Below, piece after piece: positions 2,957 to 21,562 of a stretch of DNA of 51,946 nucleotides. Position 1 is the stretch's first letter. Each line of letters opens with the position of its first letter. The notes under the pieces were generated by a model. It ran no database searches. It saw only the letters and a program-made list of their open reading frames with translations, and was not told the origin of the DNA. The translations under genes were made by a program, and so were the position numbers. This stretch comes from a virus. Location: IMG/VR virus record IMGVR_UViG_3300008952_000073, positions 1 to 51,946 of that record; one strand, 5' to 3'.

Positions 2957-3920
2957 TCAGTTTTTTCATCACATCTTCAGTGAAGTATTTTTCTGGATCT
3001 GCATAAATTGATTTGGCATATAACTGAGTCCCATTCATGTCATATCTATTTCCCGACCTTTGAAAAACTCCATGCTTCTCACCGAACTCCAAGAGTCCAT
3101 AATATCGGTCAATTCCACTCTGATAACCCAACTTAACATCGACCATCTTATTCTCAATAGTCAATCTGGATTTCTGATTTTTACAATGAATGATATTACC
3201 CACTACCTCTGTACCATCCTTGTCCTTTTTCTTGGACAAGTAAACTATGGAACTGGCTGCATACTTGAGTCCAGAACCACCACCCATCTCTTTCGTGGGC
3301 ATATATGCACCTATCACATCATAGGTATGATTAGTAACGATCAAAGGAACATTTGCACGACCTAACTTGAGAGTCAGAACACGAAAGGCAGCTTTGATTA
3401 CCTGAGATCTAGTCATGTCTCTGGTATCTGATCCTGCGGCTGTATCTGTAAGTTCTTTAGTTGTTGACAGATTACCCAAAGAGTCCAGAACGAACATCAT
3501 TGGTTTCTTTTCGTTCTCTTCCAGATATGCATCCAGAATCTTGATTGCCTGAGTACGAAATTCCTGTATAGTTACTACAGGAAGTATCACCATCCTCTTT
3601 GGGTCTATCCCACGATTGACAATAAGCTCTCTAGGTATAGCGGACTCAGACTCAAAATACAGAACACCGCTGTCAGGATTAGAATCCAGAAAGTTTTTGA
3701 CCATACCCAATGCGAAATAGGTTTTTCCTGTTGCAGACTCTCCGGCGAGAGCTGTAATTTTATTAGAAGGTAATCCTCCAAACATTGAACCAGAAAGTAA
3801 AGAATTAAAAAGAAAACTGCCAGTATCAATATAATTATTGACATCACCAGCTGCCACCCCATCATCCACAACGGAAGCATACTCATTTCCCGACTCTTTA
3901 ATAAATTGTTTTAGATCCAT
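2892..3920 (-). CDS. uvsX: UvsX recombinase (RecA family)
   Basis: 342 residues. It forms filaments on single-stranded DNA and drives strand invasion for recombination-dependent replication, helped by UvsY (26527-26958). Visible features: Walker [10 protein letters not shown], the [19 protein letters not shown] lead-in, Walker [14 protein letters not shown], and [12 protein letters not shown] with the L2-like region after it. The N-terminus [17 protein letters not shown] is typical of marine UvsX proteins. The stop of the MazG-like gene upstream and the ATG here share base 3920, so translation is probably coupled. Confidence 0.95.
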
Positions 3921-4381
3921 TATTCCTCACGATTTTCAGATTTCTCAGTGTCAAACCCATCTGGATATCTACCAGACAATTTCTTTGTATTCTCTGCAAG
4001 AACATCATGCAAATCCCAATCCATTGCAATTAGGATCTGTTGGACATACCACATGACATCACCCAACTCATTCTTTATTTTCATTCTCAATTCAGTAGTA
4101 GGCTCCTTACCCTGAAAAATAATCTTCTTTACTATATCTAGGAGTTCTCCCCCCTCTGAACAAATACCGATTGCTCCTGTAAGAATTCGTTGAGGTACAT
4201 GAAACCTTGAAGTGTCCTGCAATTCGTCCAATCTTTCAATGAACGTATCACAATCCTTTGTATATTCTGAAGTTACACTATCTACAAATTTTCTATGTTC
4301 CATCACCTGACTAGAATCAGAACTAGGTGGGGAATAACTCATAGACATTTCTTTTCTCCCTTCGGAAAATCTTGCTGCCAT
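3920..4381 (-). CDS. MazG-like nucleotide pyrophosphohydrolase
   Basis: 153 residues. The central part ([16 protein letters not shown], then [22 protein letters not shown]) carries the EExxE...ExxD acidic pattern of the all-alpha NTP pyrophosphatase fold (EGGELLD and ELGDVMWY). Family members hydrolyse dNTPs or (p)ppGpp-like nucleotides; phage copies are thought to adjust host nucleotide or alarmone pools. The start at 4381 has a good AGGAG five bases upstream. The first 60 residues, rich in Ser and charge, match nothing I recognise. It lies between gp43 and uvsX. Confidence 0.85.
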
Positions 4382-4394
4382 TTGTCTCCTTTAA

Positions 4395-6881
4395 TTAATT
4401 AAAAAAATCCATTAGAGTTGCCTGAGAACCATACGATTCGTCTATCTGCCAATGAATTGCATTGGTGATAAATTTTAAAGGCTCAACGTATGACTTCTCA
4501 AATTGTTTTTCATAATCAACATATTTTACAATGTCTAATTCTATAGGACATTCTGTAATAAACGTAAACGCATTACATTGATATGGATTGGGATCTTTCA
4601 AATGAACATATTTGATCTTTTCTCCATTTTGTATCAATGGATATTTTTTTGCAAGTTTATTATTTTTAATCTGATGATTATATACTAATGCACCTTTAAC
4701 GTGCATCGGTGTACCTCTAAGGTATACACCATTTGGTGAACTCCATTTACCCATACCATTACATGACCTTGGAAATGCAATGGCCGTTGGGTCCATATCC
4801 ATCCACTCTTTACGAAAATCTTGAATAAAATTATTGAGATCTTTTTCATCACCACTCATGATCAACTTGAGAGCGTCCCGAATCTTATCCCGACAAACTT
4901 GTGGAGTCGATGATTTGACAGCCTCGATGCCCATCATTTTCAATTTAGGTTCTGCATACTGCACACCTTCCGAATTATGAACATTCAAAATGTATCGTTT
5001 CTTTGCAGTCCAGATACCCTTATCGGCAATGACCTCACGAGCCATGACCATCTTCTGTTCGTATGCATTTACATAATCAGCAAGTTCTGCATACTTACCA
5101 TCAATAAATGGTTCTATCTTCTCTCGACAAATTGTATCCAAAAACTGAACTGGATCTTTTGGATTGAGTTTATCCATCAGCTTCTCAAAGGTGATGTAAA
5201 CTGAATCTGTATCAGATGCTATCACATAATCAATATTTTTAGTTTTCAAAATCTCATTAAAGTATTCATTAAGTGCCTGTTCAATCCACCTAATTGACAA
5301 CTGACCACCATAGGTGACAGCTTCTGCAATACGAATATCATAGAACCGAAAATACTGATTCCCGACTGCACCATAAGCAGAGTTGAGTGCAATCTTGAGT
5401 GCCATCTGCTTGTTGTGCAACTTGGGTATCATATTCTTATATTTCACATCCTTAGTCTTCTCATAATTCTGAGAGGCTTGCAACATCTGTTTCTTGGTTG
5501 CACTACGATCTGTATACATCTTTTGCATCAACTCAGGAAGAAACCCATGTTTCTTTCTAGAAAACAATGCACCATTAGGAGTTATCGTTTGATTAATATT
5601 CTTGAGATCATCAGTATCAAATGACTTGTTCAACATATTATCTACGCCAGGATGAGTCTCACTCATACCAACAATCGTTTCTGGAGAAATATTATATTGC
5701 ATAATGAGATGTGGATATAGACTGTTCAAGTCAAAACTCACCACCCACTTATGCAGACCCACTTGTGGTTCCTTCACATAAGCACCAGCATAAGCTTCAG
5801 ATTTAGATTGTCGTTGTATTAAAGGAATCTGGATATTCTTGTCCCTCAGATAATTATAGATAATCACATCCCACATCTTCACCTGAGAATACACATCATT
5901 GTAGTTACACTTTGAGAAATAAGCCATAGTGATCTGCAAATCGATCAACTTCATCTTATCTTCTAGAGCATCTACAATTTCCACATCCTGTATGTTGTAG
6001 TCAATGAAAGATTGAAAATCCTTGGTATACCAATCACGAAAAGTCTCATAGGGATTCTTTTCCTTTTTCTTACCCAACTCGACAAAACCAATATGATCCA
6101 GAGTATAACTCTCTTGTGCAGAGTAGGTGTATTTCTGATATAATTCTAGATAATCTAATTGGGATATTCCAACAATATCATAGGCAGTATGTTTCCTGCC
6201 CATTTTAAATACTTCATCTGAAAATACAGCTCTCCAAGGGGAAAGTCGTTTAATCTCATCTTCTCCGAAACGAGATTTAATTCTATTGATCAAATATGGA
6301 ATATCAAAGAATCGAGTGTTCCATCCTGTGAGAACATCAGGCATATTGGATTCCCAGAAGTTTAAAAATCTTCTGAGAAGATCATCCTCATTATCGCATT
6401 TGATGTAAGTTACATCTTCACGATCTGTATGATATCCATACAGGCCAAATACTACAAACTTTTTGGATGTATGATTCTTGAGAGTTATAGATAGAACACG
6501 TTCAATGGGATTGTCTACTTGAGGAAAACCATTCTCAGATTCAACCTCAATATCCATAGTAGCAACTAAAATCTTACTCATGTCCCATTGAATTTCCCCC
6601 TTGAAATAATCGGAAATCCACTGATAAGGCCATCGAGTAAACCCATAGACTAATCCTGGCTGATCTTTGTAAGTATCAACAAACCCCTTTGCATCCTTGA
6701 TGGACTCCTGAACCACTGGAGTCAGGAACTTACCATCAAGTGTTTTATATTGAGTTTGTTTTTTTACTGGAACGAAAAGGGTAGGTTGGAATTTGTGGCG
6801 AAGGGTTGTGCGCTCTCCATTCTTGATGCCACGGACAAGAACAGAATTGCCGAATACAGTTACATTAGTATAAAAATCCAT
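4395..6881 (-). CDS. 43: DNA polymerase gp43 (family B)
   Basis: 828 residues, somewhat shorter than T4 gp43 (898). Visible in order: exonuclease motif ExoI MDIEVES near residue 110, ExoII NTRFFDIPYLI, ExoIII in YNIQDVEIVDALE; polymerase motif A SFDLNSLYPHLIMQYN, motif B KIALNSAYGAVGNQYF, motif C IASDTDSVYI with both catalytic Asp. The end, ATLMDFFN, resembles the clamp-binding tail of gp43. It has its own sigma70-like promoter at 6904-6932 and GGAG in the short leader. Proofreading and polymerase sites both look intact. Confidence 0.97.
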   Translation of the reverse strand: MDFYTNVTVFGNSVLVRGIKNGERTTLRHKFQPTLFVPVKKQTQYKTLDGKFLTPVVQESIKDAKGFVDTYKDQPGLVYGFTRWPYQWISDYFKGEIQWDMSKILVATMDIEVESENGFPQVDNPIERVLSITLKNHTSKKFVVFGLYGYHTDREDVTYIKCDNEDDLLRRFLNFWESNMPDVLTGWNTRFFDIPYLINRIKSRFGEDEIKRLSPWRAVFSDEVFKMGRKHTAYDIVGISQLDYLELYQKYTYSAQESYTLDHIGFVELGKKKEKNPYETFRDWYTKDFQSFIDYNIQDVEIVDALEDKMKLIDLQITMAYFSKCNYNDVYSQVKMWDVIIYNYLRDKNIQIPLIQRQSKSEAYAGAYVKEPQVGLHKWVVSFDLNSLYPHLIMQYNISPETIVGMSETHPGVDNMLNKSFDTDDLKNINQTITPNGALFSRKKHGFLPELMQKMYTDRSATKKQMLQASQNYEKTKDVKYKNMIPKLHNKQMALKIALNSAYGAVGNQYFRFYDIRIAEAVTYGGQLSIRWIEQALNEYFNEILKTKNIDYVIASDTDSVYITFEKLMDKLNPKDPVQFLDTICREKIEPFIDGKYAELADYVNAYEQKMVMAREVIADKGIWTAKKRYILNVHNSEGVQYAEPKLKMMGIEAVKSSTPQVCRDKIRDALKLIMSGDEKDLNNFIQDFRKEWMDMDPTAIAFPRSCNGMGKWSSPNGVYLRGTPMHVKGALVYNHQIKNNKLAKKYPLIQNGEKIKYVHLKDPNPYQCNAFTFITECPIELDIVKYVDYEKQFEKSYVEPLKFITNAIHWQIDESYGSQATLMDFFN

Positions 6882-6937: not shown

Positions 6938-7222
6938 TTATCCATTTAACTGCATATTAGGTGATAGGACAATTCCAGAACCAAATTTGGAGTTCCATCC
7001 ATCTCTGGCTCCATCTATTGGGTCTGTTATACAGATAACCCAATCTTTGGTAATTGTTACTGGACCATGTTTTGATAAGGTAGGCCAAGGAGTAAACCCT
7101 AGACCTTCTGGGGTAGGCATGAGCTGGCAAGGAGAGGTGATGCTAACAGAGTCTCCCACAACTGTTACATCACCAATTAATTCCTCACCAGACTTCAATT
7201 TTACTAATCTTATATCACTCAT
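6938..7222 (-). CDS. LSm-like small protein
   Basis: 94 residues. The opening IRLVKLKSGEELIGDVTVVGDSV and the following strand SITSPCQLM have the strand-turn-strand pattern of the Sm1 motif of LSm/Hfq-like proteins (KLKSGEELIGxV), and the C-terminal part adds beta-like segments. Proteins like this are common next to the replication genes of marine T4-like phages; their function is unknown, with RNA binding a plausible guess from the fold. It overlaps the regA stop by 8 bases, so it belongs to the gp45-44-62-regA operon and is followed by the gp43 promoter. Confidence 0.65.
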   Translation of the reverse strand: MSDIRLVKLKSGEELIGDVTVVGDSVSITSPCQLMPTPEGLGFTPWPTLSKHGPVTITKDWVICITDPIDGARDGWNSKFGSGIVLSPNMQLNG

Positions 7223-7625
7223 CCTTCTTTTTTCCTATGTTATATTTTGTTTCAAGAATCCACTCATCCTTCTCAGAGAAGGAGAGAACCTTTATTTGAC
7301 TCAAAGGAGCTCTTGGTTCGGCTTCACCAACCATACCAACTAAACCCCAATCACTTAACAGACCAGCAATCGTGTTCCGTCTTTCTATATCATTATCAGT
7401 CAGACTTGACTTTTTACCATCTAATGCAAATAATTCCTTGAAATGTACAACATAGTACTTCCCCTTCTTGTGAAGGAGATGACAGGACTGATATAATTTT
7501 TTCTCTTTTCTTGATGCAACACCAATTCTTGATAATGTCTCTCTGACCTTCAGAAAATCATCTGGTTCATTCAGAGTGACTTCCAGCATATCTTCTGGAC
7601 CCCAATTCAATTCACCATTACTCAT
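7215..7625 (-). CDS. regA: RegA translational repressor
   Basis: About 136 residues. RegA binds early-phage mRNAs near their start codons and blocks translation. The sequence follows T4 RegA closely: EVTLNEPDDFLKVRETLSRI, LYQSCHLLHKKGKYYVVHFKE, then ERRNTIAGLLSDWGL and KDEWILETKYNIGK. The T4 protein starts at the Met of MLEVTL (ATG at 7589); here ATG 7625 is preferred because AAGG lies five bases upstream, and the frame is open to a GTG at 7631. It overlaps gp62. This RegA is a candidate regulator of the hairpin leaders described elsewhere in the window. Confidence 0.93.
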   Translation of the reverse strand: MSNGELNWGPEDMLEVTLNEPDDFLKVRETLSRIGVASRKEKKLYQSCHLLHKKGKYYVVHFKELFALDGKKSSLTDNDIERRNTIAGLLSDWGLVGMVGEAEPRAPLSQIKVLSFSEKDEWILETKYNIGKKKDE

Positions 7626-7998
7626 TTCCACCTTTATTCAATTTGGATCGGATAAGTTCTAAGTCATCATCTGTAAGTAAAGTCAAGGCATCCTTGGCCT
7701 TCTGATCGCTATATCCGAAATATTCTTTCACTAAATCTAAATTTTTAATTTTAGAAGTTTTCAACCAAGGCGCAAAACGTTTTCTTGATCTAATACTATT
7801 TAGGAGAAAGTCAAACTGAAGTTTGGAATCTAAGTGATTGTTTACATTCATTTCATTAACAAGAAGTATCGTATCTGGATGAGCATACAATGCACGATTT
7901 ACCACCCAAGCTGGATATTTCTTCTCATAAAAAGAATCTTCCATCAGATTCTCTTTAGAGTAGTTAATTGCGTTTAGATATTCTTTTAATTGAGCCAT
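7618..7998 (-). CDS. 62: Clamp loader small subunit gp62
   Basis: 126 residues, shorter than T4 gp62 (187), as in marine relatives. It pairs with gp44 to load the gp45 clamp. Recognisable stretch: FYEKKYPAWVVNRAL, followed by MNVNNHLDSKLQFDFLLNSIRSRKRF, a segment typical of gp62. In T4, gp44 lies directly upstream; here two other genes separate them. The ATG overlaps the stop of the PLP-enzyme gene by one base at 7998, so its translation is probably coupled to that accessory gene and not to gp44. Confidence 0.93.
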   Translation of the reverse strand: MAQLKEYLNAINYSKENLMEDSFYEKKYPAWVVNRALYAHPDTILLVNEMNVNNHLDSKLQFDFLLNSIRSRKRFAPWLKTSKIKNLDLVKEYFGYSDQKAKDALTLLTDDDLELIRSKLNKGGNE

Positions 7999-8834
7999 TA
8001 TCTTATGTTATTACTATTTCCTATTACCCAAAAACAAGGATTTGTTGAGGACTGATATTTACTGGAATTTATCATCATATCATAAGCTTTTGATTCATAA
8101 ATCCTGTCTAACTCAAATCCAACATTTTTCTCATATAACTGGTGATATGGCCAATTTCCTACATGAAAATTATAATCATAATCCCATACCATACCTTCTA
8201 AATTTTTATTGATATCCGACTTCCTATCATAACCAAATGGTTGTAAACCTACAAGTCGAAAATTCTTATTATATATACGTTTTCCTTCTATGACACCAGT
8301 AAAAGTTACTGCACTTCCACATGGAACAAATAGTATATCAACATTATCTGGTATATTTTGTACTTGTTCTGAAATCTTACCTATAATAGAAGATCTATAT
8401 TGTTGGGCTGCATATCCAAACAGAACCTTAAACATAGGTCTAGTTTCTGAAAGTTTATTTAAATTTGAATATAACACATTATTAAACCCCTGAGATTCAC
8501 TCAAGACTACTAACTCAGATCCCATATCTTTACACCAAGACATGGCTTTATGTTTAAGAGCTCCTTCTATACTGGTATTACCAAATCCAATAATGGAGTT
8601 GAGTCCATATTCTTGGGCAACTCTGGATACGATTACAGCTTGTGGGGAATGAATAGATGCGGCTGTAGATATTGTAGAATCACATTCCGATTTAATATAA
8701 TCCAAATTGGTTTCAATTAAATCTCTACACTGTCTAATTTTCCCACCTGTGACAAAATCAGAACCATAGGGAGCATACAAATCATCTCTTTTGTACAATA
8801 CTCCATTATATTCTTCAACTGGTGTTAATTCCAA
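7998..8834 (-). CDS. PLP-dependent fold-type II enzyme, ACC deaminase / D-cysteine desulfhydrase-like
   Basis: 278 residues. The N-terminus LYKRDDLYAPYGSDFVTGGKIRQ matches the xKREDL...GGNKxR pattern of this family, so Lys32 would be the PLP Schiff-base lysine. The segment STAASIHSPQAVIVSRVA fills the place of the substrate-binding SNH-A region, and PCGSAVTFTGVIEGK resembles the phosphate-binding glycine loop. Known members act on small amino acids (ACC, D-cysteine). It overlaps the methyltransferase gene upstream by 10 bases and gp62 by one base, so it is translated within the clamp-loader operon. Substrate unknown; a role in nucleotide or DNA modification with its neighbour is only an inference. 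Confidence 0.75.
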   Translation of the reverse strand: MELTPVEEYNGVLYKRDDLYAPYGSDFVTGGKIRQCRDLIETNLDYIKSECDSTISTAASIHSPQAVIVSRVAQEYGLNSIIGFGNTSIEGALKHKAMSWCKDMGSELVVLSESQGFNNVLYSNLNKLSETRPMFKVLFGYAAQQYRSSIIGKISEQVQNIPDNVDILFVPCGSAVTFTGVIEGKRIYNKNFRLVGLQPFGYDRKSDINKNLEGMVWDYDYNFHVGNWPYHQLYEKNVGFELDRIYESKAYDMMINSSKYQSSTNPCFWVIGNSNNIR

Positions 8835-10177
8835 AATGACTCCAATGTTGAAGGTTTTGGGAATAATTCTACAGAAGGGTCTTTACTGAAACACCAAACA
8901 TTTTCAATAAAAGTTCGTTTCATAAAATCATCCATTTGTTTCTTATCAAATGTTCCATCTTCATTCTTGAACTTAGCTCTACCCTGAGGCCTTTGCATAA
9001 TCCTCATACCCATCTGTCCAATGAAATAAGGATTAAGTGCAACATCATTACAGAGTTCATCACTTGACCGATATCGTTTTCCCTTGATTTGTGGATCAAA
9101 AATATTGATTGCAAGAACACCCCTATCACTCAAAGATTTGAATGAGTTTCTGGATACTGGAATGTAAAAATTATCTCTCCATGATTCATACTCATTAAAC
9201 TTGGCCCATGACTGATCTTCTTGATGATCTCCACCCTTGTTGTATTCTTCAGTAGAAAAATATGGTGGGGATGTAAATGCACAATCTATATCAGAAACAG
9301 ATTCCCAAGGAAGATTCTCAGCTCCACAGCGATAGATAGTAACTTTTTTAGTGCCCCGACTTTGAAATCTATTTGCATTTATCTGAAATACAGGATCACC
9401 CTTATATCCTAATATCCGTTCATATTCCCTACATTCATCAATATATCTATTGAATGTATTAGGATTAGGATCACACCCGATATACTCTTTGGCATTACTG
9501 GCAAAAAATCCACACAAACGATCACCCCAACCACAACTGGTATCTAATACTTTAGTTGCATTAGTCATTTCATAGATACATTTTGCAACCAATGGTTTGA
9601 ACTGAGTTGCAATATATGTTCCAAGACGAAATGCAGACATATAAGAGCTTTGATCTAAATTACCACCTATAAGATTTCCATCTTTATCTTTCTTGACATC
9701 ATTGATACCTCTCCAAATAGGACCAAGACATTTCCATATATCTTTTGCAGAACCATTATTCCAAACATCAATAGGGGCCTTAAAACCATAAGATCCACAA
9801 TTGAGTCTTAGATCTTGACAAAAATAATTACTTGCAGTATTAAATTTATTAGATGCATCAATCACACCCAACCCATGAGTTGAATATGGATACTGATAGT
9901 CATCGAATTTCTCCATGACATCTGCATCTAAAATTAGGGATTTGGTATAGTTTTCTTTTTTAAGCTGTTTAAAGATATTTTCCATATCATAAACAGAAAT
10001 ATTCTTTAAAGGAAAGGGAGGCCTTTCAGTTGCAATAAAAGTGGCAAGAGTGTCCCGAAAAACCTCTTTGCCATACTCTGCATTTAAAACTTGAAAGTGA
10101 CCTTCTTGGATGATAGGAAGACCATCTGAATTTGTATGGTCTTTTAAAATTTGATATAGTTCACTTGAACTTTGCAT
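8825..10177 (-). CDS. SPPY-type amino DNA methyltransferase-like protein
   Basis: 450 residues. The C-terminal half has a Rossmann-type SAM site, VLDTSCGWGDRL (about 210-221) with CDPNP (235-239), then the catalytic TSPPYF (302-307) typical of N6-adenine/N4-cytosine methyltransferases. The first 200 residues (SNYFCQDLRLNC, LGPIWRGINDV) match nothing I recognise and could give specificity or another activity. No restriction partner is adjacent. It overlaps gp44 by 17 bases and the PLP enzyme by 10 bases, so it is co-translated with the replisome genes. It may methylate phage DNA during replication; the TSPPYF form is also compatible with other transfer reactions from SAM. Confidence 0.8.
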   Translation of the reverse strand: MQSSSELYQILKDHTNSDGLPIIQEGHFQVLNAEYGKEVFRDTLATFIATERPPFPLKNISVYDMENIFKQLKKENYTKSLILDADVMEKFDDYQYPYSTHGLGVIDASNKFNTASNYFCQDLRLNCGSYGFKAPIDVWNNGSAKDIWKCLGPIWRGINDVKKDKDGNLIGGNLDQSSYMSAFRLGTYIATQFKPLVAKCIYEMTNATKVLDTSCGWGDRLCGFFASNAKEYIGCDPNPNTFNRYIDECREYERILGYKGDPVFQINANRFQSRGTKKVTIYRCGAENLPWESVSDIDCAFTSPPYFSTEEYNKGGDHQEDQSWAKFNEYESWRDNFYIPVSRNSFKSLSDRGVLAINIFDPQIKGKRYRSSDELCNDVALNPYFIGQMGMRIMQRPQGRAKFKNEDGTFDKKQMDDFMKRTFIENVWCFSKDPSVELFPKPSTLESFWN

Positions 10178-11096
10178 TTGACATTATCTCCACTAAACAA
10201 GCCATTAAATTAATTTCTTGATCTCCCACAAAGGCCGACTTGTATTGATACTCAGCAATATTCAATATAATAGCAGGGATTGAACTAGGATCACATTTCT
10301 CATACAATTTATCGTATACCTTACGATACACTTTTTGTGGGTCATTATCAAGATTATTCACAACCCAAGATCTAACTTCTTTGAAGTTTTTGGTCTTGAG
10401 AGCTTCAGCCAACTCATTCATATTGGCATCACTAATATTTAGCAAAATGCCAGAATCAATATTTCCAGATACAGAATATCGTTGAAGTTCATTCAGAACT
10501 CTACGAAAATCTGGAAAGTGTTTCATGATCAGTTCTGCAACAACTGGTTCCTCAAACCCAATTTCATTCTCTTTCAAAATGAAATTACAACGTGTAAGGA
10601 ACTCCCCAGCCATTTGTCTGGGATCAGTTGCAGAATAATCTATGACTGCACAACGTGAATGAATCGGTTCAATAATCCGATTTTTGAAATTACAGGTGAA
10701 GATAAAAGAACAGTTGGAAGAGAATTTCTCAATGAAACCTCTCATGGCGGGTTGCACCGAATCTGGCGTCATGTAGTCAGCTTCATCAATGATGACAACT
10801 TTCCTACCACCAGACATGGATACAGAACTACAGTATTGTGTAAGTTTATTACGAAGAGTTTCAATCAATCGACCTTCATCAGATCCATTGATAATCATGT
10901 AGTCACAATCTAATGACTTACACAATACCATAGCCGCAGAAGTCTTACCAGTGCCGGCACTTCCACTCAGAATAAGATTGGGTATCTTACCCTGACTAAT
11001 TATTTTACTAAATGTAGTTTTGATACTCTCTGGGAGAATCAAATCATCAATTGTGGAAGGTCTATACCTCTCCACCCATAATATATCTTTATTCAT
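10161..11096 (-). CDS. 44: Clamp loader ATPase gp44 (RFC-like AAA+)
   Basis: 311 residues, the length of T4 gp44 (319). It opens and loads the gp45 clamp with gp62. Visible: RYRPSTIDDLILP at the start, Walker A SGSAGTGKTSAA, Walker B VVIIDEADYMT, sensor FTCNFKNRI, and the arginine finger in HSRCAVIDYS. Its ATG overlaps the gp45 stop at 11096. It is followed by the methyltransferase gene where T4 has gene 62. Confidence 0.96.
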   Translation of the reverse strand: MNKDILWVERYRPSTIDDLILPESIKTTFSKIISQGKIPNLILSGSAGTGKTSAAMVLCKSLDCDYMIINGSDEGRLIETLRNKLTQYCSSVSMSGGRKVVIIDEADYMTPDSVQPAMRGFIEKFSSNCSFIFTCNFKNRIIEPIHSRCAVIDYSATDPRQMAGEFLTRCNFILKENEIGFEEPVVAELIMKHFPDFRRVLNELQRYSVSGNIDSGILLNISDANMNELAEALKTKNFKEVRSWVVNNLDNDPQKVYRKVYDKLYEKCDPSSIPAIILNIAEYQYKSAFVGDQEINLMACLVEIMSNAKFK

Positions 11097-11755
11097 CAGC
11101 CTCCGTAGGTGGAAGATGACTCAGTAGCGATCCAATATTGGAGTTGATTTTGCGAGAATCTTGCGATTCCTTTTGATGAGATCTCAACATCATAGTCGCC
11201 AGGAACCATCTTGAGATTTTCAATTTTGAAAACAAACCTGAATGTTCTATCTGAAGATTCATCCAGATTGACATGAAAGGTATCTGTAGAATCATTATTT
11301 GTGTCCATAGCTCGGACCTTCATTGGTGATCCACCTTCTACAACAATCTCAGGAGTACCAAGGACATTTCCAGCCTTGAGTAATTGAGAGAGTGTATCCT
11401 GTGTCAGTTTAAACCTGACTTCTGGATCTGGAACTGTTATGTTCTTTTCTGGTGGAGTTACAATCATGGAAGGATCACAATAAACATAATCTAAACTATA
11501 TTTATTGTTACCTATTTTGACCGATTTTTCACCAAACTCAAAGTCTGGATCATCAAAGAGTGAAGCTGCACCAAGAAACCTATTTACCTCATAGATTGCG
11601 AAATCTTGAGGAAATGTAGTTTCCACTTGAGCTTCTGCGAGAATGTTTTTCTGAACTGATACAGTTCTCAAGGTATTCCCACCCTTGACTTCAATAGACA
11701 TATTAATGTCACTAAAGTTTTTCAATGTATTAAGTGTTTGTTTATTTATTTTCAT
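11096..11755 (-). CDS. 45: Sliding clamp gp45
   Basis: 219 residues (T4 gp45 is 228). The trimeric clamp gives gp43 processivity and in T4 also activates late transcription through gp55 and gp33. It starts MKINKQTLNTLKNFSDIN like T4 gp45 and has the expected hydrophobic-strand pattern and the C-terminal RFSQNQLQYWIATES. Located first in the core block 45-44-(insert)-62-regA. A clamp-dependent late system is consistent with the gp55 gene and TATAAATA promoters in this window. Confidence 0.94.
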   Translation of the reverse strand: MKINKQTLNTLKNFSDINMSIEVKGGNTLRTVSVQKNILAEAQVETTFPQDFAIYEVNRFLGAASLFDDPDFEFGEKSVKIGNNKYSLDYVYCDPSMIVTPPEKNITVPDPEVRFKLTQDTLSQLLKAGNVLGTPEIVVEGGSPMKVRAMDTNNDSTDTFHVNLDESSDRTFRFVFKIENLKMVPGDYDVEISSKGIARFSQNQLQYWIATESSSTYGG

Positions 11756-12262: not shown

Positions 12263-12291
12263 ATTATCTCATAATAAATCGAAAAAGTCAA
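12263..12291 (-). promoter_or_regulatory. Sigma70-type promoter abutting the DUF3310-like start codon
   Basis: Minus strand TTGACT (12291-12286), 17-base spacer, GATAAT (12268-12263), with the ATG directly after it at 12262. The stop codon of the DUF262-HNH gene lies within the -35 box. RNA starting about 7 bases after the -10 would lack this ATG, so the promoter probably serves the downstream gp45 block. Confidence 0.65.
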
Positions 12292-13817
12292 GACACTTTT
12301 TCCAAAGGGGCATCTTTATATGAAAGATTTGAGTCTTTTGATTGGATTTTCAAATCAGTATTACTACCACCTTGTGATTTAGGAATAATATGGCCTCTAT
12401 GAAATCTTTCTCTCAAAATTTCCGTACCTGTTACTTTTCTTCCCTTATAATCAGTAGGATTTTCATTCCACAACTCTTCAATAGAAGGCATTGCAGATGT
12501 ATCTAGTTCAACTAAAATTTGATCTTCTATCAAAGTTGCTTTGATAGATTGAAGATACTCAGAGAATTTTCGGATTCTAGTTTCCAAATTTTGTTTACCA
12601 TATTCCTGTAAAGCCCATGGCAGATAATATGGAACCTTTTCTTTTTTTGATTTCTTAGGATCTGTAGGATGAGGAATGGCCATATAAGCTCCTGGCTCTT
12701 TTTTAAGTTTAGCATCTGCTAAAATAAATTGAGAAACAAACTCAGTCTTTTTTATGATTTTCCAATTTGGTAAATCTATATCCTTAAATTCTTTAGGATG
12801 ATCTAAGGCATACCTAAACATCACATAATTTCTAACCATCATGTGCTTATAAGATTTACTTTTAGTTACCACCATAGCAAATTCTCTTAGATATTTTTTC
12901 AAAAGAGTTACATTTTTTTCAGATACAACAAACCCATCAATACTATCAAAGTATTTAATATGACCAATATTTGAGTCTTTCTTGGGTTGAATTTTACTAT
13001 CCATCCAAATTAACATTTCAGATATAAATTTCTCATGACCATCAAAATCTAACTTATAACTAGAGCCTAATTCTAGAAAAATTCTATCTGCTAATAATCC
13101 ATCAGATTCTAATACTTCTAGAATTTTTCGGTTATGTTCAGTAAAATGTTTAGTAGCTCTTAATTTTTGCCAATCACTCCAAGCAACATTTGAATTCTTA
13201 GCTATAAGTGCAGCTGTAAAAGTTTCAATATCTCCCTTTTGGGCAAAGGCCACTGGAACATACAAATTCCTAATAAACACTTGAACATTAGTAGGAAGAT
13301 CTTTAATTTTCTTACCCGATAAAGATATCTTCTTATTAGGTGTAAAATCTGTATCAGTTATAGTTAATTTTTCCACCCCAAAAGTTATTTCATTATTTAA
13401 AAGTGGTACAATAGCCATCAATAGTCTATTTTGACCATCAATAGTATAATACTCTGTACCTCCTTTTTCATCATTTTTAACTTTATTCAGAACTTGTTTA
13501 ATATTAGTTCGTTCTACATCAGTACTTGCATCTGCAAGATTATTCTCTAAAGAACGAATTACCAATTCGATAGGAACAAACATAAAATAATCTACATCTG
13601 CATTTCCTTTCAATAAGGAATGTAAATATTCCTTAACCCTTTGGTAATCCTGTTCTTTCCAAGAATCCTCTTGAATTCTTCTATTTAAGGTTCCAGCCCT
13701 TGAACCTATTTTACTATTTGGAGTTTCTCTCGCTGGAGTACAATATTTGTGTAATTGATCTAAAGTCCACAACTCATTTGTATCCCATTTACTCGCACCA
13801 TCCACTATCAAAGTCAT
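12288..13817 (-). CDS. DUF262-HNH protein, modification-dependent nuclease candidate
   Basis: 509 residues. Near 124-133 the sequence YTIDGQNRLL matches the DGQQR motif of DUF262 (ParB/Srx-like NTP-using domain). The C-terminus, HRGHIIPKSQGGSNTD then NLSYKD, is an HNH motif (His476, Asn497, Lys501). This DUF262 plus HNH layout is that of GmrSD- and SspE-type defence nucleases, which sense DNA modification. The motif reads Asn in place of the second Gln. The gene has its own sigma70-type promoter (13848-13876), suggesting early expression. In a phage it might attack competing phage or host DNA while the phage's own DNA is protected. Function is inferred; the domain match is by eye. Confidence 0.75.
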   Translation of the reverse strand: MTLIVDGASKWDTNELWTLDQLHKYCTPARETPNSKIGSRAGTLNRRIQEDSWKEQDYQRVKEYLHSLLKGNADVDYFMFVPIELVIRSLENNLADASTDVERTNIKQVLNKVKNDEKGGTEYYTIDGQNRLLMAIVPLLNNEITFGVEKLTITDTDFTPNKKISLSGKKIKDLPTNVQVFIRNLYVPVAFAQKGDIETFTAALIAKNSNVAWSDWQKLRATKHFTEHNRKILEVLESDGLLADRIFLELGSSYKLDFDGHEKFISEMLIWMDSKIQPKKDSNIGHIKYFDSIDGFVVSEKNVTLLKKYLREFAMVVTKSKSYKHMMVRNYVMFRYALDHPKEFKDIDLPNWKIIKKTEFVSQFILADAKLKKEPGAYMAIPHPTDPKKSKKEKVPYYLPWALQEYGKQNLETRIRKFSEYLQSIKATLIEDQILVELDTSAMPSIEELWNENPTDYKGRKVTGTEILRERFHRGHIIPKSQGGSNTDLKIQSKDSNLSYKDAPLEKVS

Positions 13818-14457: not shown

Positions 14458-15666
14458 TTAAAAAGGTATCTCTGGATCATTTTCTTCAGAATTTTCCTCA
14501 GAAACTTCCTCTAATCCCATAGGAACCTTGACATCCTCATCGACTTTGGAATACAAGTCCATAAAGGATGCCTTAGTATCCTCATCAAAACGATTGACAC
14601 AAAGTTCAATCGCTTTCATGCGATCACCGAAAATGGCGAACGCTTTGACGATATGATCCAATCGGCGAGTTGAAATCAACTCATCGACAGCACCTTCATA
14701 GAAGGACTTACGGATAACTTCTGCCCAAGTGACAAGTCGATCTGCAAATTCGGCCTCGACTTTTCCATACTTTTCCATCGAACCAAGAACAATCTTTTTC
14801 TCAGTTGATGTGGCAGGATAGGGCTGTTCCATCGTTACAGGAAATCTTTCGAGGAACGCCTCGTTTAAAATGTTAGTTCCAATAAACCGACCATCATCAG
14901 AACCTTTACCTTTTGTGTTTGCAGTCGCAATGACTGTAAACCCTTTGGCGGGCTTGATGTATCGGTTGATCTTCTTGATGTAAATACCATTACCTTCAAG
15001 AACAGGCTGTAAACACATGATCTTGTTAGATGCAAGGTCAATCTCATCAAGGAGAAGAACTGCACCTTTTTCCATTGCTTGTGCAACTGGACCAAGATTG
15101 AATTTGGTTTCACCATCAACCAGACGAAATCCACCGATCAGATCATCCTCATCAGTTTCAATAGTTACATTGACCCGAACCATTTCTCGTCCCAACTCGG
15201 CACAAGCCTGTGAGACATTCAGAGTCTTACCATTACCAGATAGTCCAGTTACAAAGATTGGGTAGAATATCTTTGACTTAATGATATTCTTGATATCCCT
15301 GTAATGACCCCAAGGAACAAAACCTTTGAATCGATCAGGAACCATTTTTTCTACATCAGTAACCATCATAAGATTAACAGCTGTTTCAGGCACAACTGGC
15401 TCTACAGTTTTTGCACTTTCACTAAGCACTTCTTCTGTAATACGATGAGTATTACAGGTTTCAGTACTTTCCATAACAAATTCATCCAAAGATGGAATTT
15501 TATATAGACTTCTACCAGTTCTAAAATTATCAGTAAACCAATAAGGATGGGCTATACCCAATTCACTCATAACAGATTCAACATCAGATTTACTAATTTC
15601 AGAACCAGTTCCGAATTTAGTGTAAACATGATTCAAAAATTGTTGACGCTTTTCTGTTAGTTTCAT
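14458..15666 (-). CDS. cobS: CobS-like MoxR-type AAA+ ATPase
   Basis: 402 residues. AAA+ core: Walker A GLSGNGKT (about 139-146), Walker B VLLLDEIDLAS, sensor VIATANTKGKG, and an Arg-finger region FLERFPVTM. The NVSQACAELGREMVRVNVT and EDDLIGGFR segments are those of phage CobS proteins, named after the ATPase of cobaltochelatase. The N-terminal 60 residues look like a small helical domain. The neighbour upstream is a large VWA protein; MoxR-type ATPases usually act with a VWA partner as a remodelling machine. It has its own promoter and a conserved hairpin leader. A role in cobalamin is not shown. Confidence 0.88.
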   Translation of the reverse strand: MKLTEKRQQFLNHVYTKFGTGSEISKSDVESVMSELGIAHPYWFTDNFRTGRSLYKIPSLDEFVMESTETCNTHRITEEVLSESAKTVEPVVPETAVNLMMVTDVEKMVPDRFKGFVPWGHYRDIKNIIKSKIFYPIFVTGLSGNGKTLNVSQACAELGREMVRVNVTIETDEDDLIGGFRLVDGETKFNLGPVAQAMEKGAVLLLDEIDLASNKIMCLQPVLEGNGIYIKKINRYIKPAKGFTVIATANTKGKGSDDGRFIGTNILNEAFLERFPVTMEQPYPATSTEKKIVLGSMEKYGKVEAEFADRLVTWAEVIRKSFYEGAVDELISTRRLDHIVKAFAIFGDRMKAIELCVNRFDEDTKASFMDLYSKVDEDVKVPMGLEEVSEENSEENDPEIPF

Positions 15667-15733
15667 AACAAATCTCCGAAGGAGTTATCAAATTTGAAAG
15701 AGAATTTATTTCCTCTCTCAGTCTCACATTTAT
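15667..15733 (-). promoter_or_regulatory. Conserved hairpin leader of the CobS-like gene
   Basis: Two elements are shared with the leaders at 20220-20280 and 20533-20600: a hairpin with a GGAAATAAAT loop (stem AGAGA/TCTCT here), then about 18 bases later CTCC-TTC-GGAG, in which the ribosome binding site GGAG is paired, followed by ATTTGTT and the ATG. The stem bases differ between copies while the loop is kept. Confidence 0.55.
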
Positions 15734-15762
15734 ATTTTACTATAAGGAATCTCAATTGTCAA
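15734..15762 (-). promoter_or_regulatory. Sigma70-type promoter for the CobS-like gene
   Basis: Minus strand TTGACA (15762-15757), 17-base spacer, TAAAAT (15739-15734), preceded by an A8 tract. The segment GACTTGACAATTGAGATTCC differs by one base from the promoter at 18302-18330. Confidence 0.85.
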
Positions 15763-15772
15763 GTCTTTTTTT

Positions 15773-18262
15773 TTAAACAATTTTCTCAACAAATTTATTT
15801 AGAAGGACTCGATTCAAAGTCTTATTCCTCATGTGTTTCATGAAGGCTTTTGCCATTCTACCTTTAGTCATATCAGAATTGACTTCCAGTTCTTCAGTTT
15901 CCAGTGCCATGTTTCCAGTTGGTATGACATAATACTCATCATATCCAAACTCATCGGCAAGGGCAACCTTATTCTTACGAAGCTCAGCACGAACCTCATC
16001 AAGATTTTGATTTGGAAACAACCAACGCAAATCATTTCTCCTAATAGAACCATTTCCAGTTGATTGGGCAAGATAGAATCCAACCACATTACAACCAGTT
16101 CTGGCTTTCAGCATTTCAAGATGAGCTGCAGTTTCAGAGGCAGTATCTCTACCCTTCATTTTAATCTGCTTTTTGGTTACAGGATCTACATAGTGTTTTA
16201 CTGAATTCCACTCTGAAGAATCCGTAGACCAAATAATTCTTCCAGTAGGTTCTCTTCTATAATTAGAACCATACGCCATTTCTTCTGTTTCCACTATTTT
16301 TCCACCATCATTGTTAGATGCACCATCAGAAATCACAACTACATTCAAGTTCTGAATATTGTTGTCTCTGCGATACTTTGGAACAAAAGTAGAAAGAGTG
16401 GCAATGGCTGCATTTAAAGGAGTTCCACCCAAATGCATTCCATCTGGAAAATGAGGTCTGGCATAATGAAATTCTCTACCTGTAAGATCCATATACTCAC
16501 TAAGCAGGTGCTTACCAGTATAATGATCATAATCCATTCCACACATTTGAATGGTAGTGAATGTAAGATAATGAGCCATTCTTTTCAGTTCCATCTTGGA
16601 CATTCTATCTGAAAAGAGATTCAGAAGAACATGATCCGAAACTGCAACATCACCTAACTTGTAATTAAAGAAAGGATCATTTTTATAATCACCTCTATAT
16701 TCACCAAAGGCACATCCACCTTCTTTATCTTTAAACCAAACATTCATACCATGATCGGCAAATGCAAACACTTCAAACTTGATTCCTGCTCTCTTACAGA
16801 ACCATACAATCTGCATCAACTGTTTGAATGCATCATGGATAATTCGACTCATTGAACCAGACCAATCAATCAGAATGACCAGACCATGATTCTTACCATC
16901 GGGCATAACAGTGATCTTTTTGAAAAGATCTTCATTATACTTGTATGAATGAACCTTAGTCATATCCAGTTGACCAGTTTTGGCAATGGAAGCTCTGACA
17001 TAAGAATCAGCAGACTTCTTCATCTCAAATTCCTTCAACATATAGTTGATTGTTTTCTGAGATTCTTTCTCAAACTTGGTAAGATACTTGTATGAAGCAC
17101 TCATCCATATTTCAGAATTAGAACCACTATAAGTATCAGGTATAAATTCAGCATAATGATTTATAATCGACTTATAGGAAACCAAATTCTTCAGAGTAGA
17201 CTCAGGAAGATTTGCATACCAATAATCTTTTCCATCATTTACGTTCAGATCACGTTTGCGATCTTCCCATTCAATAACTGTATCAGCTTGCATGGTATTG
17301 GTAGTTGAACCCATACCAAATCCACCATTACGACTTATCTCTTTAGGAGTTCCATCTACAGCATCAGATTCTTCTTCTTTTTCATCAGAAGGATTTGCTT
17401 CTTTTGCAGCTTTGAATTCTTCTGCTTTTTTCTCAAATTCTTCCTTTAACTTTTCTGCAAGAGCATTTCCAGACTCAGATCTTTCAGTAGACTCAGACTC
17501 AGGCTCTTCAGTGGACTCTTTGGATTCTCCTTCCATTCCAGAGTCACCATCGGAATCTTCTTCTCCTTCCATTTCAAAAGGAGACTCACCAGCCATGTCC
17601 ATATCTAAATCATCATTTTCACCTTCATCAGACATATCATAATTAAACTCACCAAAATCATGATCATCATCAAACTCTGAATCTTCCATATCTTCAACAT
17701 CTTTGCAATACTCATACAAAGCACGAGCTGCATCAATGGCATCTTTGAAAGTCACAGCTTTCTTACAGAGATCATAGATTTCCATCTCTGAACTGGAAAA
17801 TTCTAATCCAGTTGCATCACCGATTTTAGAATGAAGATTAATCCTATCGGCAAGATTGGACTCAGAAATGTCTCTACCAGCTGTTCCAAAGAAATTATCC
17901 TTATACAACTTCACATAAGCAGTCTTGAACGCACGGCGTCCGCCAGGATACTTGTCCTTAATTTTACGTTCAATCCGAACATCCTCAGTCACATTGATAA
18001 ACGACTTGGGCAGATCATCATCATTATCCTTGTTGACAATCTCAGCCCATTCTTCAGGATCAGTCCAAAGAGCATGACCAACCTCATGAAGTGTCATCAT
18101 ATCATAAGTGTCGCCAGTCATATTCTTGAGAATCGGTAAACCCAACTCACGATTTCTGGTATCGAAATATGCAGTAGGCATATTCTTATGAACTACCGAA
18201 ATATCTTCCGTTGCCAGAAGTTTCGCAAGTAAGGTTTTGACTTCTTTATTTACAGTTTCCAT
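15773..18262 (-). CDS. Large HEXXH and VWA protein, CobT-like
   Basis: 829 residues. The N-terminal part has a zinc metallopeptidase motif HEVGH (59-63) and, about 30 residues later, NVTEDVRIERKIKDKYPG, giving a possible third ligand. A long acidic low-complexity linker follows (about 185-305). The C-terminal part is a von Willebrand A domain with MIDAS DWSGS (466-470) and later VVVISDGASNNDGG. It lies just upstream of the CobS-like ATPase, so the two probably form a MoxR-VWA pair similar to metal chelatases or to CbbQ/CbbO-type activators. Its own promoter is at 18302-18330. Substrate unknown; whether the peptidase site is active cannot be told. Confidence 0.85.
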   Translation of the reverse strand: METVNKEVKTLLAKLLATEDISVVHKNMPTAYFDTRNRELGLPILKNMTGDTYDMMTLHEVGHALWTDPEEWAEIVNKDNDDDLPKSFINVTEDVRIERKIKDKYPGGRRAFKTAYVKLYKDNFFGTAGRDISESNLADRINLHSKIGDATGLEFSSSEMEIYDLCKKAVTFKDAIDAARALYEYCKDVEDMEDSEFDDDHDFGEFNYDMSDEGENDDLDMDMAGESPFEMEGEEDSDGDSGMEGESKESTEEPESESTERSESGNALAEKLKEEFEKKAEEFKAAKEANPSDEKEEESDAVDGTPKEISRNGGFGMGSTTNTMQADTVIEWEDRKRDLNVNDGKDYWYANLPESTLKNLVSYKSIINHYAEFIPDTYSGSNSEIWMSASYKYLTKFEKESQKTINYMLKEFEMKKSADSYVRASIAKTGQLDMTKVHSYKYNEDLFKKITVMPDGKNHGLVILIDWSGSMSRIIHDAFKQLMQIVWFCKRAGIKFEVFAFADHGMNVWFKDKEGGCAFGEYRGDYKNDPFFNYKLGDVAVSDHVLLNLFSDRMSKMELKRMAHYLTFTTIQMCGMDYDHYTGKHLLSEYMDLTGREFHYARPHFPDGMHLGGTPLNAAIATLSTFVPKYRRDNNIQNLNVVVISDGASNNDGGKIVETEEMAYGSNYRREPTGRIIWSTDSSEWNSVKHYVDPVTKKQIKMKGRDTASETAAHLEMLKARTGCNVVGFYLAQSTGNGSIRRNDLRWLFPNQNLDEVRAELRKNKVALADEFGYDEYYVIPTGNMALETEELEVNSDMTKGRMAKAFMKHMRNKTLNRVLLNKFVEKIV

Positions 18263-19436: not shown

Positions 19437-19510
19437 TGGCAGACCACCAAGGAATCGAACCCTGACCAAGAGATTTGGAATCTCCTATTCTACCATTAAA
19501 CTAGTGGTCT
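19437..19510 (-). tRNA. tRNA-Trp (anticodon CCA)
   Basis: Acceptor stem AGACCAC/GTGGTCT pairs over seven bases. The anticodon loop is TTCCAAA within GGAGA/TCTCT, giving CCA. The T arm GGTTCGATTCC is standard, the discriminator is G, and the 3' CCA is encoded (19439-19437). Confidence 0.93.
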
Positions 19511-19513
19511 AGA

Positions 19514-19588
19514 TGGCGGCTCGTGGGAGAATCGAACTCCCCTCTCTGGCGTGACAGGCCAGTGTCCTAACCGATAAACGAACGAGCC
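19514..19588 (-). tRNA. tRNA-Asp (anticodon GTC)
   Basis: Acceptor stem GGCTCGT/ACGAGCC, anticodon arm CTGGC-CTGTCAC-GCCAG with anticodon GTC, T arm with GTTCGATTC, discriminator G and encoded CCA (19516-19514). Confidence 0.94.
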
Positions 19589-19590
19589 TC

Positions 19591-19667
19591 TGGTAGGGAA
19601 GACAGGATTTGAACCTGCGGCATCTACGTCCCAAACGTAGTGTTCTACCAGACTGAACTACTTCCCT
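19591..19667 (-). tRNA. tRNA-Pro (anticodon TGG)
   Basis: Acceptor stem AGGGAAG/CTTCCCT, D arm GTTC...GAAC, anticodon arm CTACG-TTTGGGA-CGTAG with anticodon TGG, T arm GGTTCAAATCC, discriminator A and encoded CCA. The stop codon of the upstream small gene lies within its first ten bases. Confidence 0.93.
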
Positions 19668-20637: not shown

Positions 20638-21054
20638 TTAAAAATTTATCGGATACTCAAAATTATTGGAGTGGATATTCTCTGCAATCAATTTTGCACC
20701 ATTACTCAGGTGAAACTTCATTGCCATATCAGTTTTGGGGCTTAGCGTTACCATTCTCTTAAATCGCCAAGTTTCTTGGATAATGTCTCTTGCTTGCATT
20801 ATGAGTCTCCTTCCATATCCTTTTTCCAGTGACCATAATGTATATGCAACTGCAACTGGGCCACAGTTTGCACTCAATAAACATTCTTCATCGGCAGGAA
20901 CACGATCAATGTAGACCATGCAGAGATACGCCATATTATCTAGATGGAAAACTTCTCTAGCTGGAGCCAGTCTAGTCTCTGCATTTATATGTGGTCTTAT
21001 AGGATCGCCTGTTATAATTCTACTAACTTGCTCGTGCGAGCATATCTTTTCCAT
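20638..21054 (-). CDS. GNAT-like acetyltransferase
   Basis: 138 residues. The segment GPVAVAYTLWSLEKGYGRRLIMQARDIIQE has the strand then helix of a GNAT acetyl-CoA site, with EKGYGRRLI standing in for the usual RxGxGxxL loop, and KFHLSNGAKLIAE matches the C-terminal part of the fold. The N-terminal 50 residues are less typical. The gene overlaps the peptide deformylase 3' end by 32 bases. Acting on phage or host proteins after deformylation is a reasonable guess, but no substrate can be read from the sequence. Confidence 0.65.
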   Translation of the reverse strand: MEKICSHEQVSRIITGDPIRPHINAETRLAPAREVFHLDNMAYLCMVYIDRVPADEECLLSANCGPVAVAYTLWSLEKGYGRRLIMQARDIIQETWRFKRMVTLSPKTDMAMKFHLSNGAKLIAENIHSNNFEYPINF

Positions 21055-21562
21055 GAGCTCTCTTGAGTTTAAGTTTTCCTCGTTTTAACTTTCGTTTTGC
21101 AATATTTAGATCCATTCTTTTTGCTCGACTTGTAAAATCTATTCCATCCATGTGATCCATCTCATGTTGGAAGACTCTACACATCAGACCCTCAAAGGTA
21201 TCTGAATGCTTTTCACCTTTCTCATCCTCAAATTCTACCTCAATCCAATCTGGTCTGCGAATCTTCACAAATAAGCCAGGATAAGTCAAACAACCTTCCT
21301 CTATTGTAACCACATTCTCAGACTCCACTACAATCTTAGGATTGAAACAATTAATGTAATGTTCATTATCTCCCATCACAAACACTCTGTATGGAAGACC
21401 TACTTGATTTGCAGAAAGGCCTATGCCACCAAAGTGTTTCATAGTCTCAACAAGACTTTCTGCAATTTCTTTCCTACTGGTATCTGATATATCACTATCA
21501 ACATATTCAGGCATTGGGGTTTTGACCATAGGATGGTCTGGCTGTAAAAGTTTATATATCAT
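21023..21562 (-). CDS. def: Peptide deformylase
   Basis: 179 residues. It removes the formyl group from new proteins and needs a bound metal. All three motifs are present: GIGLSANQVG (motif 1), EEGCLTYPG (motif 2, metal Cys) and QHEMDHMDG (motif 3, two metal His and catalytic Glu). Phage deformylases are common in marine T4-like phages and are thought to speed processing of abundant late or host proteins. The C-terminal tail is basic (KRKLKRGKLKLKRAHGK), which is unusual and may bind the ribosome. ATG overlaps the gp46 stop by 4 bases. Confidence 0.95.
   Translation of the reverse strand: MIYKLLQPDHPMVKTPMPEYVDSDISDTSRKEIAESLVETMKHFGGIGLSANQVGLPYRVFVMGDNEHYINCFNPKIVVESENVVTIEEGCLTYPGLFVKIRRPDWIEVEFEDEKGEKHSDTFEGLMCRVFQHEMDHMDGIDFTSRAKRMDLNIAKRKLKRGKLKLKRAHGKDMLARAS

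Follow-up and report, generated by a model that had tools for sequence, protein, structure and literature searches.

Organization of the clamp-loader locus

The window, that is, the whole stretch of DNA analysed here, comprises 51,946 bases of a marine T4-like virus, from the IMG/VR virus record IMGVR_UViG_3300008952_000073. We observed that its replication genes are arranged on the minus strand in the order gp45–gp44–MT–PLP–gp62–regA–(small ORF)–gp43, where MT is an SPPY amino-methyltransferase-like protein of 450 aa (8825-10177) and PLP is a predicted fold-type II PLP enzyme of 278 aa (7998-8834; phrog_3650). In T4, the order is 45-44-62-regA-43. The sliding clamp gp45 (11096-11755) and the translational repressor regA (7215-7631) were assigned by Pfam and PHROGs, the clamp-loader large subunit gp44 (10161-11096) by Gp44_lid and phrog_168 (E 6e-123), and the small subunit gp62 (7618-7998) by Phage_clamp_A of Pfam together with PHROGs. 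The small ORF (6938-7222) lies between regA and the DNA polymerase gp43 (4395-6881), and a MazG gene is present at 3920-4381. Judged by the polymerase, the OM43 phage Melnitz, a Methylophilales phage of the Kyanoviridae, is the closest one in culture (57.5%).

The initial annotation had described two genes that split 44 and 62 and overlap their neighbours by 17, 10 and 1 bases. All of this was confirmed: the overlaps are 17 nt for gp44/MT, 10 nt for MT/PLP and 1 nt for PLP/gp62 (TAATG). PLP starts with a TTG codon having GGAG ∼6 nt upstream, and both the TTG start and the 10-nt overlap with MT were also found in the relatives L001, L002/L191 and L012. Comparison with relatives gave dN/dS values of ∼0.09–0.13 for MT and PLP. 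As these values are low and similar to that of gp44, the substitution patterns indicate that both genes are under purifying selection and are neither chance ORFs nor decaying.

Other features of the window, all on the minus strand, were also recorded. A 2OG-Fe(II) oxygenase (2384-2956; PF13640, E 1.5e-8) is situated between the uvsX and primase/helicase genes, and Melnitz has an oxygenase at the matching position. Upstream of the gp45 region, a 509-aa ORF (12288-13817) combines a DGQNR motif of DUF262/ParB type with an HNH-like HRGHIIPKSQGG..N stretch at its C-terminus; none of its Pfam matches exceeded the cut-off (HNH_5, E 0.046), and a 33% relative is present near MT in L054. This ORF possibly encodes a phage-borne GmrSD-like nuclease. 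The region 14458-18262, between Hsp20 and the tRNA cluster, encodes an AAA+ ATPase (402 aa) and an 829-aa VWA/CobT-like protein, a pair that is kept beside MT in other phages (L027-L040). The intervals 19437-19667 and 21023-21562 contain genes for three tRNAs (Trp, Asp, Pro) and for a peptide deformylase (PF01327, E 3e-38).

Predicted properties of the MT and PLP proteins

In its AF2 model (pLDDT 89.8), MT adopts a class I SAM fold. Its sequence contains the SAM motif I DTSCGWGDR (residues 212-220), the motif IV TSPPYF (302-307) and the acidic residues D236 and E287, and in the MT alignment D236, E287 and S303-P-P-Y306 did not vary. Hence, a SAM motif I and a motif IV of the type (S/N/D)PP(Y/F/W) occur together in a class I fold, which supports the earlier proposal of a SAM-dependent DNA methyltransferase-like protein as far as the model and motifs go. 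The protein scored below the cut-off of Pfam N6_N4_Mtase (PF01555; 22.5 versus 26.7 bits, E 1.3e-4), and its distant relative in contig L266 exceeded it (28.2 bits). Sequence and fold searches of the PDB with MT returned generic MTases only.

The N-terminal part of MT had been described as a 200-residue region of unknown nature, for which a structure prediction was proposed. The prediction yielded a helical domain at ∼1-180 with pLDDT mostly 85-98. The description holds insofar as a PDB search with this domain gave no match, but the domain is well predicted and the whole 450-aa fold is common to giant-virus and phage MTases in BFVD. In that database, where the names are computed, the full chain aligned with giant-virus proteins named cytosine-N4 methyltransferases, and a part of it with phage proteins, the Vincenzo DNA methylase among them. 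We also considered MT–PLP as a defence system and rejected this, PADLOC having returned only a generic Type II MTase. A second, divergent MT paralogue is located upstream of the gp45 region in the close relatives L002 (2-688) and L263 (3-953); it was not found in the window.

The PLP protein was modelled by AF2 with an alignment whose rows came from the collected loci only, and the model (pLDDT 89) has the PALP fold of fold-type II enzymes. Its best PDB fold matches by Foldseek were 4d9e/1j0a (TMq ∼0.7), corresponding to D-cysteine desulfhydrase/ACC deaminase; the same two enzymes were matched when the PLP profile was compared with PDB sequences, and the fold also matches CysK. We located the Schiff-base Lys32 in GGK.R, SPQ at 63-65, a CGS loop at 172-174 and YE.K at 246-249. 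Lys32 within GGK.R, SPQ and YE.K showed no variation across 14 diverse relatives. The fold, the Schiff-base lysine and the Gly-rich phosphate loop of fold-type II PLP enzymes are thus all present, and the identity given in the initial annotation is well supported by the model and by the invariant lysine.

The window PLP scored below the cut-offs of Pfam PALP (22.2 bits versus 35) and NCBIfam NF010646 (29.9 versus 550), and its relatives in L024 (37.8 bits) and L087 (37.0) exceeded that of PALP. An assignment as ACC deaminase or DCD was rejected, as the curated models do not recognize it as such and it shares with them the fold only. Against the profile of phrog_3650, which groups PLP proteins from Ackermannviridae such as ViI, similarity extended over most of the domain (E 1.4e-26). 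Since PLP falls below the curated Pfam and NCBIfam cut-offs, it is, by these profile comparisons, a divergent branch of fold-type II having its own phage family, phrog_3650.

Recurrence, fusion and exchange of the pair

The initial annotation would have been refuted had the two genes rarely occurred together elsewhere; however, the pair recurs across divergent phages. As the locus scans were seeded with the window's own proteins, the counts describe relatives of the window and not phages at large: among 78 distinct PLP loci, MT was at most four genes away in 42, and a gene for MT, a second MT, GNAT, AspH oxygenase, radical SAM or ParB was near PLP in 61. On a stricter set of 31 PLP loci, dereplicated at 90% and flanked on each side by two genes or more, MT was within two genes of PLP in 13, and MT or another candidate modification gene was near PLP in 21. 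Viewed from the other gene, PLP was beside MT at only 6 of the 37 dereplicated MT loci, and any recognised partner at 17. MT is therefore the commoner gene of the pair, and since most of its loci do not have PLP, it can act alone or with other partners.

In 25 of 28 distinct pairs, the two reading frames overlap. The sites of insertion are gp44/gp62, gp43–MazG/uvsX and gp46–VWA gene, in addition to positions upstream of gp45 and beside the terminase. From these genomic positions, we concluded that MT–PLP is a mobile module, for which the gp44/gp62 site is nothing special.

In some phages, the two functions reside in one chain. Pam4_70 of Pseudanabaena phage Pam4 (829 aa; L107 3789-6278) contains ParB (51-157), the MT motif I region (328-379), PLP (405-631) and the MT CPPY part (668-799). 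In gp1 of Erythrobacter phage R6L (L267 2790-5407), an inserted PLP domain separates the SAM motif from the CPPY motif in the same way, and a ZS04 protein matches the same span. The corresponding ParB-MTase of the mycobacterial prophage prophiGD43A-5 has no PLP insertion. In Mycobacterium phages AlanGrant and Vincenzo, the ParB-MTase gene overlaps a PLP gene; in Microcystis phage Mae-JY30, ParB-MT is followed by a PLP-family protein; and in contig L266, the gene after MT encodes an 844-aa fusion protein with a PLP part. The R6L fused protein has been named a CcrM-like DNA modification methylase (PMC5463345), and the accessible part of that paper contains no mention that we could find of its PLP domain.

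Judged by their domain order, the Pam4 and R6L proteins, with PLP inside a ParB-methyltransferase, provide a direct physical link between the two activities. The phage ParB-methyltransferases (phrog_498/phrog_12517; AlanGrant gp1, Pam4_70 and R6L gp1), which adjoin or contain the PLP family found in the window, have the same CPPY/SPPY..E.Y signature as the window MT. However, the latter has no ParB domain and carries a different N-terminal domain, and the likeness is remote (hhalign with AlanGrant gp1, E 6.6e-6, probability 85%).

At the sensitivity used, PLP matched in only 4 of 84,980 bacterial and archaeal species genomes, and these matches included one T4-like locus, one ParB–rSAM–PLP cassette and one MT-linked gene. 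By this search, members of the PLP family hardly occur outside viral or viral-like contigs.

The partner of MT also differs between close relatives. At the gp44/gp62 site, the window, L001 and L002 carry PLP, whereas L003 and L004 carry AspH and GNAT. Near-identical MTs have unlike partners, namely AspH/GNAT in L133, a second MT in L137 and PLP in L142. On an MT tree of 102 rows, made by a quick search and having some long branches, the label 'PLP neighbour' changed at least nine times on the starred branches alone. The exact count is soft, because contig ends and simple ORF calling affect the labelling and because of the way in which the tree was made. These patterns indicate that the gene beside MT is repeatedly exchanged among PLP, GNAT, an AspH-type oxygenase and a second MT. 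The AspH (PF05118, E ∼1e-12) and second MTase (PF01555, E 3e-22) partners were recognised by Pfam, while the support for GNAT was weak and below the cut-off. Downstream of MT–PLP, single contigs encode an AsnB (PF00733) asparagine synthetase with a 2-hydroxyacid dehydrogenase (L175 3753-6006) and a spermidine-synthase-like protein (L220 3079-3714). An SbmA/BacA-like peptide transporter gene follows MT directly in the marine phage contigs L041 (PF05992, E 3e-120), L044, L059, L062 and L066-L068.

DNA hypermodification as the probable function

We take ViI gp226 and M6 gp52 to act in the base-modification pathways of phages ViI and M6, where these PLP homologues presumably work on an amino acid that the base already carries. 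The PLP profile matched Vi01_182 (phrog_3650) of Salmonella phage ViI at E 1e-68 and gp52 of Pseudomonas phage M6 at E 4e-14, so that both 5-hmdU systems have a homologue of the window PLP. The DNA of ViI carries 5-NeOmdU and that of M6 carries 5-NedU (PMC6449724). The first steps are different: hmdU synthase, kinase and transferase in ViI and M6, and, as proposed here, an SPPY methyltransferase-like enzyme in the window. A 5-hmdU route was rejected for the window, as PF00303 (thymidylate-synthase family), present in ViI and M6, was absent from the window and 13 related fragmentary records. Next to gp52, M6 encodes the radical SAM protein gp53, a relative of those beside PLP in the ParB–rSAM–PLP cassettes of L083-L102. 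Such cassettes lie directly upstream of the terminase in Firmicutes-type phages (L083-L089, L091, L097-L102 and L265), and their PLP proteins resemble gp52 just as their radical SAM proteins resemble gp53.

Synechococcus phage S-B43 has the CmoA/CmoX/CmoY carboxymethylcytosine system (PMC12783734). The likeness is that a DNA MTase homologue sets a handle which a second enzyme elaborates, that ParB is associated and that the second enzymes vary. However, CmoX is a C5-MTase with SPPC while the window MT is amino-MTase-like with SPPY, and the second step at window-type loci would involve PLP, GNAT or AspH enzymes. In Melnitz, the gp43–MazG–RecA interval (L262 1415-9915) encodes a C5-cytosine MTase, a Tet_JBP dioxygenase, a protein of 427 aa and a P-loop kinase, and the gene for a RimK-type ATP-grasp ligase lies shortly upstream of gp43; from this gene content, it is likely a hypermodification island in a cultured OM43 phage. 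It occupies the gp43-to-MazG/uvsX slot that the MT–PLP module uses elsewhere, but with another first-step enzyme. A TET/JBP route was rejected for the window, as Tet_JBP (PF12851), present in the control Melnitz, was found in none of 17 fragmentary records, among them the window. GNAT-type enzymes are also among the exchangeable partners of MT, as in the Mom system of Mu (N6-carbamoylmethyladenine), but these partners had no detectable similarity to Mom in a shallow alignment (hhalign probability 0.1%).

We consider it quite probable that MT and PLP are co-expressed with the replisome and act as a module that hypermodifies DNA bases after replication. The two-step DNA modification offered by the initial annotation gains from the recurrent pairing, the overlaps, the Pam4/R6L fusion and the homology to the ViI/M6 PLP proteins. 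The SPPY MT would act on freshly replicated phage DNA, modifying an exocyclic amine (C-N4 or A-N6), and the PLP enzyme would next act on the modified base within DNA. Amino acids are the usual substrates of PLP, AspH and AsnB enzymes, and amines those of GNATs; this tentatively favours a first step whose product is amino-acid-like, for example a 3-amino-3-carboxypropyl group from SAM. Transfer of aminocarboxypropyl from SAM is perhaps the simplest way to such a product, a suggestion that we make tentatively. PLP might then convert the group by decarboxylation or by beta/gamma chemistry, and the GNAT, AspH-type oxygenase and AsnB partners in sister phages might acylate, hydroxylate or amidate it. 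Protection against host nucleases would be the likely benefit, and partner swapping would diversify the final base. More speculatively, the locus may belong to a widespread class of phage hypermodification, in which an SPPY enzyme adds an amino-acid-like group to an exocyclic amine, a swappable partner tailors it and relatives differ in their base. We found no description of the MT–PLP pair among the searchable papers, and as far as these show it would be an undescribed variant of phage DNA hypermodification.

It is unlikely that MT simply makes m4C/m6A as an ordinary orphan methyltransferase, with PLP as separate cargo that shares the insertion site by chance, such as a D-cysteine desulfhydrase/ACC-deaminase-like auxiliary metabolic gene. 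The SPPY amino-MTase motif of MT is indeed canonical, PLP is often missing from MT loci, the closest solved structures of PLP are the enzymes just named and the replication cluster is a hot spot for cargo (SbmA in L041); yet PLP sits within MTase domains in Pam4 and R6L, the pairing occurs at several genomic sites in unrelated phages, and the PLP family, unlike most auxiliary metabolic genes, is nearly missing from cellular genomes. We also hold little expectation that PLP itself installs the group, by forming an aminoacrylate from serine or O-acetylserine to which the base amine adds, with MT methylating or capping the same or a neighbouring base. Fold-type II PLP enzymes perform beta-replacement, on heterocycles in the plant willardiine/mimosine synthases; the fold match to CysK and D-cysteine desulfhydrase is in keeping with this, and a GNAT partner could provide an acyl-activated donor. 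However, no GNAT lies beside the window pair, and the ViI/M6 homologues presumably act on an amino acid that is on the base already.

A carboxy-SAM route, in which MT moves a carboxymethyl group to an exocyclic amine (CmoX acts at C5), appears quite improbable. The cyanophage CmoA/CmoX/CmoY precedent (PMC12783734) and the AsnB-type amidotransferase in L175 would suit it, but CmoA (TIGR00740) was found in 0 of 25 related records, which are fragments, and the Cx-SAM route was rejected on this account. Highly improbable is a role in nucleotide-pool metabolism or in making a modified dNTP before incorporation by gp43, to which the location among replication genes and the nearby MazG could point: no thymidylate-synthase-family, TET or CmoA gene was found in the window or the related fragments searched, and ParB-MTases as well as a second DNA MTase are among the partners. 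The nucleotide-metabolism module, the other suggestion of the initial annotation, is thus not supported, because the partners either act on DNA (ParB, MTase, second MTase) or are tailoring enzymes, and because nearly all members of the PLP family come from viral or viral-like contigs.

If MT–PLP is indeed a hypermodification module, the presence of a PLP enzyme in a replication operon would be accounted for. The pair or its fusion is present in the cultured phages Pam4, R6L, AlanGrant and Vincenzo, so the hypothesis is testable already. New bases would become predictable from the partner that follows MT, and the module would be a source of new enzymes for DNA labelling. A part of the marine T4-like phages would carry DNA with a new hypermodified base, and the enzyme of the second step would be exchanged between close relatives, which would suggest that host defences select on the last modification step.
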